Below are positions 3,894 to 13,825 of a stretch of DNA of 24,931 nt, one piece after another. Within the stretch, counting starts at the first letter, position 1. Every line of letters begins with the position of its first letter. The translations under genes were made by a program, and so were the position numbers. This DNA is from a virus: positions 1 through 24,931 of IMG/VR virus record IMGVR_UViG_3300005435_000049, one strand, 5' to 3'. The notes under the pieces are model-generated. The model was not told the origin of the DNA, did not search any database, and was given only the letters and a program-made list of their open reading frames with translations.

Positions 3894-3911
3894 CTTTCAC
3901 CTCCTATTTCT

Positions 3912-3941
3912 ATTATATAGCGACCGCAAAGTACACTTCTA
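3912..3941 (-). promoter_or_regulatory. minus-strand promoter with TATAAT -10
   Basis: TATAAT (3912-3917) lies about 18 nt upstream of the ATG at 3893. The -35 at 18-nt spacing (3936-3941) is TAGAAG, one base away from the TTGAAG seen at 9628-9633 but weak against consensus. The leader would be about 12 nt and carries the AGGAGG site. Confidence 0.5.
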
Positions 3942-3994
3942 GGCCCAATCTAAGAGCTCTCTGCTTTCGATACTCATAGACTAGCAAATAGACA

Positions 3995-4094
3995 AAGTCT
4001 AAGCTAGGTCTAACAAGCGTTTCCCCTAGCCTCAATACAAAGACCTTAAGGCTAGGGGTCACACTCGTAGACTCTCTTAGACTTAACGCTTGTT
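3995..4094. other. intergenic structured region with interleaved inverted repeats
   Basis: The 189-nt gap between 3894 and 4082 contains three inverted-repeat pairs. AAGTCTAAG (3995-4003) pairs with CTTAGACTT (4076-4084). AACAAGCGTT (4012-4021) pairs with AACGCTTGTT (4085-4094), which lies inside the end of the upstream gene. CCCCTAGCCT (4023-4032) pairs with AGGCTAGGGG (4049-4058). The first two pairs cross rather than nest, so both together would make a pseudoknot or alternative folds. The innermost hairpin could terminate the 4083-4997 operon, though no U tract follows it. Confidence 0.5.
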
Positions 4095-4997: not shown

Positions 4998-5019
4998 ATG
5001 GAAAACCTCCTCTCATTCT

Positions 5020-5049
5020 ATTATATAGGAAACCCTAATGGGAAATCAC
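5020..5049 (-). promoter_or_regulatory. minus-strand promoter, GTGATT-N18-TATAAT
   Basis: TATAAT occupies 5020-5025 and GTGATT 5044-5049, with an 18-nt spacer. It sits immediately downstream of the terminator at 5061-5117, so a fresh operon starts here. Confidence 0.5.
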
Positions 5050-5060
5050 GAGGCAAAAAG

Positions 5061-5117
5061 AAGGCCCTGTGACCGTCGCTACGCCGATGCCAGACGCCGT
5101 ACGGTCACAGGGCTTTT
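5061..5117. terminator. strong bidirectional intrinsic terminator
   Basis: A perfect 13-bp stem GCCCTGTGACCGT (5064-5076) / ACGGTCACAGGGC (5101-5113) with a 24-nt loop, flanked by an A-rich run on the left (5056-5062) and TTTTCCTTCT on the right. On the minus strand the A-rich run becomes a U-rich tail, so transcription through the structured RNA region should stop here. Confidence 0.85.
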
Positions 5118-5535
5118 CCTTCTCCCCGTGTTGATGGCTTTCGGTCAGCCCAACCGTTACCACCAACTTCCACTCCCAGTCCCCACTGGGTAGGCGGAGC
5201 TCTACGTTGACCCTATGGTCTCGAGTTCGCGCACGAAAACATTTGGTTGTCGTAGAGCTCCAGTGCGTTAGCCTGACTCGAACCGTCCGCTCGGGGGGCA
5301 CTCGAGGTGTCGCGGACCGATGCGCTGCACGGGGGCACAGTACATCTGAGGCTGCCGACCTGCATCATCAAACTGCGACGACGCTACGGGTAACGCTCCA
5401 CAGACCCGGCTCGGGGTTCTCGAGGAAGGGAATTACTCGAGACTCTTCCGGGTCAGTTGGAGGTGATGGGCGTGATAATCCACTGGTTTCGTCCGCTACG
5501 AGACGTCCGAGGGTTAATGCGTTTCCATCACCAGT
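5118..5535 (-). ncRNA. candidate structured non-coding RNA, about 400 nt
   Basis: No credible coding frame fills this stretch between the tRNA-like gene and the terminator. It is dense with stems: 5130-5137/5160-5167 (8 bp, with inner stem 5142-5145/5153-5156); CCCAGT/ACTGGG 5175-5180/5185-5190; GGAGCTCTACG/CGTAGAGCTCC 5196-5206/5251-5261; GTCCGC/GCGGAC 5285-5290/5312-5317; GACCCGG/CCGGGTC 5403-5409/5448-5454, enclosing TCTCGAG/CTCGAGA 5418-5424/5436-5442; and 5486-5492/5498-5504. Strand is inferred from the flanking genes and terminator. It does not look like tmRNA or RNase P RNA by eye; GOLLD- or ROOL-like large phage RNAs, which often sit beside tRNAs, are worth comparing. Confidence 0.45.
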
Positions 5536-5632
5536 GCCCTCGGGAGGAATCGAACCTCCGTCGCCCTTTGCTTCCCCGATCGGGTCGCCACCAGACTATT
5601 CAAAGGGTGCTCTACCATTGAGCTACGAGGGC
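5536..5632 (-). tRNA. tRNA-like gene with a 34-nt anticodon loop
   Basis: On the minus strand the acceptor stem GCCCTCG/CGAGGGC, D arm GCTC-AATGGTA-GAGC, T arm GGAGG-TTCGATT-CCTCC and a 4-nt variable loop (CGAC) are all perfect. The anticodon stem CCCTT (5603-5607) pairs with AAGGG (5564-5568), extendable to 7 bp, but the loop is 34 nt (5569-5602) instead of 7, and position 33 would be G rather than U. Length is 97 nt against the usual 73-77. CCA is not encoded. No amino acid is assigned. It could contain a small insertion or intron, be a degenerate tRNA, or be a tRNA mimic belonging to the adjacent RNA. Confidence 0.6.
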
Positions 5633-5640
5633 TTGGTCAG

Positions 5641-11030: not shown

Positions 11031-11075
11031 GGTTTCGACCTCTCCAGTGAGGCTTTTGTTTTGCATGCTAATTCT

Positions 11076-11105
11076 ATTATAGAGCGGGAGCAACGTGTAA
11101 ATCAA
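11076..11105 (-). promoter_or_regulatory. minus-strand promoter, TTGATT-N18-TATAAT
   Basis: TATAAT at 11076-11081, TTGATT at 11100-11105, spacer 18 nt. It drives the leftward operon starting with the 11030 (or 11066) gene and marks the left edge of the divergent control region. Confidence 0.65.
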
Positions 11106-11634: not shown

Positions 11635-11664
11635 TTGTTTACCCTAGAGGGTCCTCTATATAAT
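11635..11664 (+). promoter_or_regulatory. plus-strand leaderless promoter with palindromic spacer
   Basis: TATAAT at 11659-11664 and TTGTTT at 11635-11640, spacer 18 nt; the ATG at 11672 is seven bases beyond the -10, so the mRNA should start at the start codon. The spacer holds the perfect palindrome ACCCTAGAGGGT (11641-11652), well placed for a repressor. Confidence 0.55.
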
Positions 11665-11671
11665 AAATAGT

Positions 11672-12459: not shown

Positions 12460-12648
12460 TCAGAAAGTGACCGTGGTCTTCCAGTCCTCGTTACACATGG
12501 ACCCTTCCGGGTTGTCTCCCGGTTCCGGGTTGCCTGCACACCACATGTCGGACTGCTCGAGCACCCACGACCCGTTCGCGTCCTGACCAATCAACGGCTG
12601 ACCCTGAAGTTCCGTACCGTGTTTGCGGCACGTGAAGACGAATTCCAT
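12460..12648 (-). CDS. Cys-rich small protein, 62 aa, paralogue of 8890-9090
   Basis: ATG at 12648 with GAAGGG seven bases upstream; the longer frame to 12777 is not supported. MEFVFTCRKHGTELQGQPLI, then SDMWCAGN, MCNEDW and KTTVTF follow the same Cys/His/Trp pattern as 8890-9090, 3.4 kb away. Probably zinc-binding. Function unknown. Confidence 0.65.
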   Translation of the reverse strand: MEFVFTCRKHGTELQGQPLIGQDANGSWVLEQSDMWCAGNPEPGDNPEGSMCNEDWKTTVTF

Positions 12649-12661
12649 TACCGTACCCTTC

Positions 12662-12820
12662 TCAGCACTGACCGTCGCATGCGAACCAACCGACCGTACC
12701 CCGCGTTTCGTACCCGCCCACCCCGACGATCGTCCACCCCTCGTTCTGGGTCGACTCGTCCCCGTAGTGAACAACAAGAGGTGCGATGACCATCGTGACG
12801 ATGATCAGGATCTTCTTCAT
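12662..12820 (-). CDS. small secreted or membrane peptide, 52 aa
   Basis: AAGGG eight bases before the ATG at 12820. MKKILIIVTMVIAPLVVHYG is a classic signal or anchor segment (two Lys, then a hydrophobic core). The remainder (GDESTQNEGWTIVGVGGYET, then RGTVGWFACDGQC) has two Cys at the end that could form a disulfide outside the cell. No lipobox. Function unknown. Confidence 0.6.
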   Translation of the reverse strand: MKKILIIVTMVIAPLVVHYGDESTQNEGWTIVGVGGYETRGTVGWFACDGQC

Positions 12821-12849
12821 GTTCTAGACCCTTCTGGTATGGAAGGAGT

Positions 12850-12873
12850 GGGTACGATCTTTCGATCGTACCC
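12850..12873 (-). terminator. 10-bp hairpin with GAAA tetraloop
   Basis: GGGTACGATC (12850-12859) and GATCGTACCC (12864-12873) with a 4-nt loop that reads GAAA on the minus strand. It begins 16 nt after the stop at 12890. U-less but very stable; likely the 3' end of that transcript. Confidence 0.65.
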
Positions 12874-12889
12874 CACCCACCTTACCAGA

Positions 12890-13192
12890 TCAGGACTGGT
12901 CGGTCTCGACGTCGTCGATGGTCATCTGGTTCTCGTCCACGACCGTCTCGGTCTGCACCGACTCGTCCTTCTTGAGCAGGTTCTTCGGAGCGTACTTGTT
13001 GTCGAACCAGTTCTTCAGGTCCTCGACCGTGACCTTCTTCTTTCCGTCCTCGCCCACGAAGGACTTGATGTAACCCTTCCCGACGTAGGTGTACAGCATC
13101 TGCGGGGGCAGCTCCTTTTCCACACCCAGGTTCGCGATCCACCCGTTGACGACCTTCGTGGCCTGGTACGGGGAGTACGTGGTGTTCAACAT
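12890..13192 (-). CDS. HTH-like phage protein, 100 aa, related to 5684-6229
   Basis: AAAGGGG precedes the ATG at 13192. SPYQATKVVNGWIANLG, then PPQMLYTYVGKGYIKSF and KVTVEDLKNWFDNKY, look like a compact helix-turn-helix module; the last 25 residues are acidic and disordered. It shares the PQ-hh-Y-x-Y-V/I block with the 5684-6229 product. Probably DNA-binding; exact role unknown. Confidence 0.7.
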   Translation of the reverse strand: MLNTTYSPYQATKVVNGWIANLGVEKELPPQMLYTYVGKGYIKSFVGEDGKKKVTVEDLKNWFDNKYAPKNLLKKDESVQTETVVDENQMTIDDVETDQS

Positions 13193-13234
13193 TTTCTTAC
13201 CCCTTTTTCCGGTTTTGGTTTTGCTGTTGATATT

Positions 13235-13240
13235 AGTATA
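13235..13240 (-). promoter_or_regulatory. possible -10 element upstream of 13192 gene
   Basis: TATACT in the context GCTATATACTAATATC, about 43 nt before the ATG at 13192. No good -35 at 16-18 nt spacing, so only a partial promoter is seen. The direct repeat GCGCTAT...GCGCTAT lies just upstream (13265-13282). Confidence 0.3.
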
Positions 13241-13309
13241 TAGCGGGATCTTGCAGTTACATACGCGCTATTTGGCGCTATTATTCATGATCTTTTTTGA
13301 CCGTGTGTA

Positions 13310-13364
13310 CTAGATGGTCATATATAGGTAGGGGTTATTACCGTACCTATATATGACGGTCTAG
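13310..13364. repeat. long AT-rich inverted repeat (14 + 5 bp)
   Basis: GTCATATATAGGTA (13317-13330) and TACCTATATATGAC (13344-13357) are exact inverted copies; after a 2-nt mismatch, CTAGA (13310-13314) and TCTAG (13360-13364) extend the stem. The loop is 13 nt. It starts 12 nt after the stop of the 13377 gene. It could be a terminator, an operator or a cruciform-forming site. Confidence 0.75.
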
Positions 13365-13376
13365 GACCGTACCGTA

Positions 13377-13571
13377 CTAACTGTTACATTCACACTTATT
13401 AGTAACGGACCGTACCATTCCACAACCCGGACAAACCTTACCGGACCGGACGGTCTGGACCTGCTTGGACCGTCCGAACTTGAACGGTGAAGCAGCACGG
13501 TCCGTATAAGCACCGTCCTTCATGAACCGAAAATCGTTCCTTACCGTACCGTTCAGGTCCTGATAGGACAT
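13377..13571 (-). CDS. small CxxC zinc protein, 64 aa
   Basis: AAAGGAACGGTC precedes the ATG at 13571. The C-terminus carries CPGCGMVRSVTNKCEC, four Cys in a knuckle; the rest is polar and basic (FKFGRSKQVQTVRSGK). The DNA is unusual: the pentamer ACGGT/ACCGT recurs through it in all frames, as in its flanks. Function unknown. Confidence 0.6.
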   Translation of the reverse strand: MSYQDLNGTVRNDFRFMKDGAYTDRAASPFKFGRSKQVQTVRSGKVCPGCGMVRSVTNKCECNS

Positions 13572-13653
13572 GACCGTTCCTTTCCAGACTGATAGTATCG
13601 TTTTTTGACCTGTCCTATTTTTTTGTTTGCTATTTTGTTTTGCTTGTAACTAT

Positions 13654-13683
13654 ATTATACTAGAGGATCTTGGTCCAAGTCAA
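13654..13683 (-). promoter_or_regulatory. minus-strand promoter, TTGACT-N18-TATAAT
   Basis: TATAAT at 13654-13659 and TTGACT at 13678-13683, spacer 18 nt. It gives a leader of about 75 nt before the ATG at 13571. Closest match to the sigma-70 consensus in the window. Confidence 0.7.
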
Positions 13684-13825
13684 TGCCCCTGGGTCTCAGA
13701 TAGAGTAGGAGCATTTTCGCATGTGTTACCAGGTCATACCGTACCTTCGTCGGCAGATTTGACCATATAATATACACGAGAAAAGTCGCCAGAAACTGCA
13801 GATTTTCCACGTATTTACCAATAAG

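Follow-up and report, generated by a model that had tools for sequence, protein, structure and literature searches.

To our knowledge, few large structured RNAs of phages are known, and none of these has a settled function. GOLLD is a large non-coding RNA of phages and prophages that lies near or together with tRNAs, sometimes with tRNAs in its linker, and its 3′ region is conserved whereas its 5′ region is less so (PMC12286853). ROOL is a large phage-borne RNA near tRNA islands, with unknown function (PMC12286853). We investigated a locus in a 24,931-base virus record from IMG/VR, here referred to as the window (the whole stretch of DNA that was analysed), which carries, like these two, a large structured non-coding phage RNA near tRNAs. 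Similar to the uneven conservation of GOLLD, its core and terminator are conserved and a stretch ahead of the core varies by ~330 nt; however, the conserved part is ~260 nt, it is joined to a tRNA-like domain without an anticodon, and the GOLLD model found no match in the window or in two relatives, L007 and L047. ROOL differs in sequence and in that the core here is smaller, and it was equally without a match in these three phages (E up to 5 for the window and up to 2 for L007 and L047, both models). The kinship with GOLLD and ROOL suggested in a preliminary description of this DNA thus holds for setting and layout but not for homology, and the comparison is one of setting, not membership. 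Of the 4227 Rfam families searched in the window at E up to 5, only tRNA was matched, by the tRNA-like domain. With the strong covariation in five distinct sequences described below, this supports the earlier proposal of an undescribed large phage RNA, and we consider the RNA a new family not described before.

Genomic Setting and Distribution of the RNA

In its right half, the window encodes the terminase, portal, protease and major capsid proteins of a tailed phage, and the phage proteins of the window are ~30–35% identical to those of Arthrobacter and Microbacterium phages, among others, a distant kinship. The RNA is carried by uncultured soil phages of an actinophage-like lineage. The RNA occupies positions 5055–5632 of the minus strand, or up to 5677 with its leading hairpin P0, and sits between an upstream gene (6229–5684, minus strand, 181 aa), whose 3′ end it directly follows, and a conserved downstream gene (4997–4590, minus strand, 135 aa). 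The upstream gene is kept in ~40 other uncultured phages and matched no family in Pfam or PHROG; the downstream gene matched none in PHROG. The extent of 5118–5535 given in the preliminary description was too small, though its statement that the region holds no coding gene was borne out: in the relatives, stop codons and shifts of frame interrupt the open frames, and no conserved ORF was found across them.

Homologues were searched for in viral contigs with the two neighbour proteins and conserved DNA patterns. Five distinct versions of the RNA were recovered, from the window (with the near-identical L002) and from four distinct uncultured phages (L003 with L004, L007, L047 and L228), all with the same downstream gene beside the RNA. 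L228 was found last, by a gapped sequence pattern, and had no part in defining the structure; it scores 89 bits against a model for which the window structure was the only source. No match was found among 50,697 phage records. Against INPHARED, blastn of the region and tblastn of both neighbour genes gave nothing, and the annotated phage collection contains no close relative. The models did not recover the core at ~57 other loci of this phage family, and it is thus limited to one sub-lineage. Several other candidates were rejected: pattern matches in Hyphomicrobiaceae and Anaerolineae (L104, L105) received no support from the models, and 119 contigs sharing GGAGCGTTACCCGNA yielded, besides the already known copy L094, only fragment matches to a core sequence profile and no homologue. 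TTCGA motifs common to other islands belong to tRNA T arms and not to the core.

The RNA is probably co-transcribed with the upstream gene. A consensus scan identified a candidate promoter ahead of this gene (GTGAGA-18-TAAAAT, TGTAAAATAGAA, 6306–6277, minus strand), in a stretch conserved in the window, L003 and L007; its promoter activity is inferred from sequence, and it would serve the upstream gene and the RNA as one unit. Between the upstream stop codon and the tRNA-like domain lies P0, a 12-bp hairpin (5677–5640, minus strand) whose stem, read by eye, recurs with altered pairs in L007 and L047. This arrangement, with P0 immediately after the stop codon and no strong promoter between gene and RNA, could be expected if the RNA were the 3′ untranslated region of the upstream gene, its structure guarding or regulating the mRNA without a role of its own. 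We regard this as unlikely, as protecting an mRNA end would not require hundreds of bases that include near-invariant internal motifs and a tRNA-like domain, and the same gap in L008, L012 and L014 holds just a short terminator-like hairpin.

The tRNA-Like Domain

The tRNA-like domain (5632–5535, minus strand) scores 55.7 bits against the Rfam tRNA model (RF00005, cut-off 29 bits) and has homologues in all five phages. It shares with tRNA the acceptor, D arm, T arm and T loop, consisting in the window of a 7-bp acceptor, a D arm with GG, a T arm of GGAGG-TTCGATT-CCTCC and a 7-bp anticodon stem. It departs from tRNA beyond this stem, where the 7-nt anticodon loop with U33 and an anticodon, as in a functional tRNA, is absent and a 30-nt loop without a recognisable anticodon (AATAGTCTGGTGGCGACCCGATCGGGGAAG, 5600–5571, minus strand) takes its place; position 33 is a G. 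The acceptor is complete (7/7 bp) in the window and L003 but reduced to 4 bp with mismatches in three of the five phages (L007, L047 and L228). The tRNA-like domain is no decoding tRNA. What the preliminary description had called a tRNA-like gene is a real element, but it belongs to the same conserved RNA unit and is no ordinary tRNA.

Among the five phages the D and T arms are nearly invariant, and the anticodon stem covaries (CCCTTTG/CAAAGGG, CTACATCA/TGATGTGG, CGCATCA/TGATGAG and TCAATGCACTT/AAGTGCATTGA) beneath a loop of ~28–43 nt. The loops of the window and L228 are almost identical (GTCTGGTGRCGACCCGATCGGGGAA) over differing anticodon stems, and conservation of a loop on a changed stem is what one would expect if a functional module had replaced the anticodon. 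With the D and T arms kept and the anticodon lost, a role in processing or mimicry fits better than decoding.

All of the extra sequence lies in the anticodon loop, the site of tRNA introns, and ARAGORN, which makes no call without introns, proposes a tRNA-Val(GAC) with a 29-nt intron when introns are allowed. An ordinary tRNA with a spliced intron, followed by 400 nt of intergenic remnant, is nevertheless very unlikely: there is no U33 at the right place, a group I intron would be far longer than the insertion, L007 gives no such call, the acceptor is mismatched in three of five phages, and the 400 nt behind the domain are under clear structural constraint. A second comparison is with tmRNA, in which other RNA likewise replaces the anticodon arm on a tRNA elbow. 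The domain here differs in being contiguous at the 5′ end of the RNA, where tmRNA has permuted halves, in its full D arm, in having C3-G70 and not G3-U70 in the window, and in lacking a tag ORF, and searches with Rfam and ARAGORN found no tmRNA.

Secondary Structure and Covariation

Read along the minus strand, the RNA consists of P0, the tRNA-like domain, hairpin domain R1, a variable stretch, P1 enclosing P2, a junction closed by P10 (containing P3, P11, P4 and P5/P6), P7, P8 and the terminator P9. About 420 nt with many stems separate the tRNA-like element from the terminator, ~260 nt of which form the conserved core, and the stretch between R1 and the core is 0 to ~330 nt longer in the relatives. 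The stems of the preliminary description are present, with more than eight helices of 6–14 bp now recognised. R1 (5532–5462, minus strand, as are all features that follow) has a closing stem GGTGATGG/CCATCACC, fully compensated in L007, L047 and L228, and an inner TTAACCCTCGG. The nested pair noted earlier was confirmed as P1 (GACCCGG/CCGGGTC, 5454–5448 with 5409–5403) around P2 (TCTCGAG/CTCGAGA, 5442–5436 with 5424–5418), which encloses the conserved loop AATYCCYTYC; P1 carries three two-sided changes and P2 seven, with every cell paired.

The core junction (5396–5265), closed by P10 (GCGTTA, 5396–5391, with TAACGC, 5270–5265), is backed by the covariance models R1 and R2, which hit in all five phages. 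P10 and P11 are invariant among the five sequences and thus compatible with the structure only, since helices that never vary are unchecked by covariation. In hairpin P3 (5384–5362), missing in L003, six of eight pairs changed on both sides, as did 8/10 in hairpin P4 (5346–5319). P5 (GTCCGC/GCGGAC), with P6 (CAC/GTG) and an invariant CCCCCC (5317–5285), has two two-sided pairs in L228 (GTCGTC/GACGAC) and one G-U in L047; a CCCCCC/GGGG pseudoknot is conceivable. The alignments further revealed GGTTCGAGTC (5284–5275), altered among the five sequences only by a G to A in L007, and we infer that this motif is T-loop-like. Beyond the junction, P7 (5261–5196) is an 11-bp helix (GGAGCTCTACG/CGTAGAGCTCC) with a variable interior and three two-sided changes, reading GAAGCACTAC/GTAGTGCTTC in L228, and P8 (5190–5175, CCCAG-TGGGGA-CTGGG) is a hairpin with two.

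The terminator reported previously was confirmed as P9 (5113–5055), an intrinsic terminator with a 13-bp stem, a conserved loop around GGCGTCTGGCATCGGCGT and a U-rich tail (CTTCTTTTTG). Nine of the 12 pairs compared in P9 changed on both sides, and every cell is paired. Its loop, ACGGCGTCTRGCATCGGCGTRGCG (window 5100–5077), is conserved in L003, L007, L047 and L228 with the stem largely replaced, which is unusual for a terminator, and may be a binding site. A hit of ctRNA_pGA1 to the L047 terminator was below threshold (27.3 vs 45 bits) and taken as chance.

A structured RNA, then a terminator, then a gene is the classic order of a cis-acting leader or attenuator in the style of a riboswitch or T-box, in which the RNA would sense something and the terminator, with its unusually conserved loop, would control the downstream gene. 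Behind the terminator, however, lies a strongly conserved −10 promoter motif of the downstream gene (CTATATAATAGA, 5028–5017), present in the relatives as well, and with a promoter motif of its own at this position the downstream gene does not have the RNA as its leader. In addition, we noticed no competing anti-terminator pairing, the two strands of the terminator stem covary with each other, and no Rfam riboswitch or T-box matched at E up to 5. Attenuation is accordingly an improbable explanation of the RNA.

The motif CTATATAATAGA is repeated in the window, with nine matches at ≤2 mismatches vs 0.37 expected, including 3909–3920, 5017–5028, 11073–11084 and 11656–11667. Separately, a GTCTA/TAGAC-rich non-coding element precedes a TATAAT promoter throughout the family (window 3950–4080, L008, L010, L012 and L014). 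The window also holds a cluster of CCGTACC/ACCGTACC repeats at 12612–13739, nearly all on one strand and including seven copies of ACCGTACC, with a 27-nt inverted repeat at 13307–13367 within it; this cluster is a possible operator array.

Covariation in the homologues, a check suggested with the preliminary description, provides the decisive evidence for the structure. Across the five distinct sequences, which are the whole sample, 16 of the 44 pairs in the core junction changed on both sides and 97.2% of cells are paired (12/44 pairs with four sequences). L228 brought new compensatory changes in P5 (GTCCGC/GCGGAC to GTCGTC/GACGAC), P7 and P1. Of 500 shuffled controls, none attained either the percentage of paired cells or the number of two-sided pairs, and when the partners were slid out of register, 24–37% of cells were paired and 0–3 pairs were two-sided. 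These counts come from an alignment fitted to the structure and itself biased, but the slide control and L228 counterbalance this bias. The helices beyond the modelled junction (anticodon stem, R1, P1, P2, P7, P8 and P9) contribute ~35 more two-sided positions with nearly every cell paired; they were anchored by hand, and the count for the anticodon stem is at most one too high (the outermost L228 pair). That four other phages keep the folded shape while the letters change shows that the shape matters, and the conserved structured RNA is almost certainly real.

Folding energy alone gave moderate, suggestive evidence that is neither decisive nor strand-specific, with z = −2.71 on the minus strand and −4.25 on the plus strand for 5118–5534, z = −4.2 for 5040–5640 on the minus strand, and unremarkable values in 200-nt sub-windows across 5201–5600. 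A plain MAFFT alignment of the core with RNAalifold had no signal (z = −0.7) because the variable hairpins misalign; the hand-made core alignment gave z = −10.5, a value biased by curation for structure. The plus-strand value, the folding of palindromic DNA on both strands and the T-rich tails on both sides of the terminator hairpin might point to an element that acts as DNA or on the plus strand (an origin, a packaging or recombination site, or an antisense RNA). Where only one side of a pair has changed, however, the outcome is mostly G-U on the minus strand, equivalent to A-C on the plus strand, and this supports the minus strand. As the tRNA-like domain, the neighbour genes and the promoters all lie on the minus strand too, action as DNA or on the plus strand appears highly improbable.

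Potential Function of the RNA and Related tRNA-Like Elements

By analogy with tRNA processing, we favor, with a probability of roughly 0.6, a trans-acting structural RNA that is separated from the upstream mRNA by tRNA-type processing. The RNA would arise as the tail end of a transcript that begins with the upstream gene, and host RNase P and 3′ tRNA-processing enzymes would recognise the tRNA elbow and cut there, steps that follow the established action of RNase P and RNase Z. The cut at the tRNA-like domain would separate mRNA from RNA and set the RNA's 5′ end, with terminator P9 setting its 3′ end. The released RNA of ~420 nt (up to ~765 nt in L007) would accumulate during infection and serve as a stable structural RNA that works in trans, the role presumed for GOLLD and ROOL. 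In a variant of this mechanism the tRNA-like domain would stay attached, and the whole ~520-nt RNA would be one molecule whose tRNA mimicry engages host translation or tRNA-handling machinery. The weak acceptor (4 bp with mismatches) in L007, L047 and L228 may weaken RNase P and 3′ processing. The locus adds a new large phage RNA, represented by five distinct sequences, whose secondary structure has been tested and whose fused tRNA-like domain predicts RNase P cleavage and binding to the ribosome or to tRNA enzymes.

In related phages the same island holds many tRNAs and tRNA-like elements, among them at least six others with expanded anticodon loops. Those in L031, L085, L009, L040, L072 and L064 have canonical D and T arms, a full acceptor and anticodon loops of 12–92 nt, and the expanded-loop elements mostly have a normal variable region of 4–5 nt after the stem. 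Since the anticodon stems of single elements are only weakly better than chance, these elements are a lead; searches of open-licence literature found no description of such expanded-loop tRNA-like elements in phages. They suggest that these phages use anticodon-less tRNA bodies repeatedly, from related islands. It is possible, though rather doubtful, that they form a class of anticodon-less tRNA mimics in which a conserved RNA module stands in for the anticodon loop and the tRNA body is recognised either as the carrier of a large structured RNA or as a mark for its processing; the RNA described here would then be one member of a wider set maintained at one island in a phage family, acting in trans on the host tRNA or ribosome machinery.

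Elements with intact D and T arms whose anticodon loops are expanded or non-canonical were located, in this island of related phages or near it, at L031:5990-6086, L085:2666-2805, L009:1337-1496, L040:5562-5672, L072:41-126 and L228:14216-14290. The elements in L031, L085, L009 and L040 carry G3-U70, the alanine identity pair. At about 1098–1165 of L075, a T arm and the 3′ acceptor strand TCGGGGA are followed, 8 nt on, by the matching 5′ acceptor strand TCCCCGA and a D arm, an order that looks like a circularly permuted tRNA gene.
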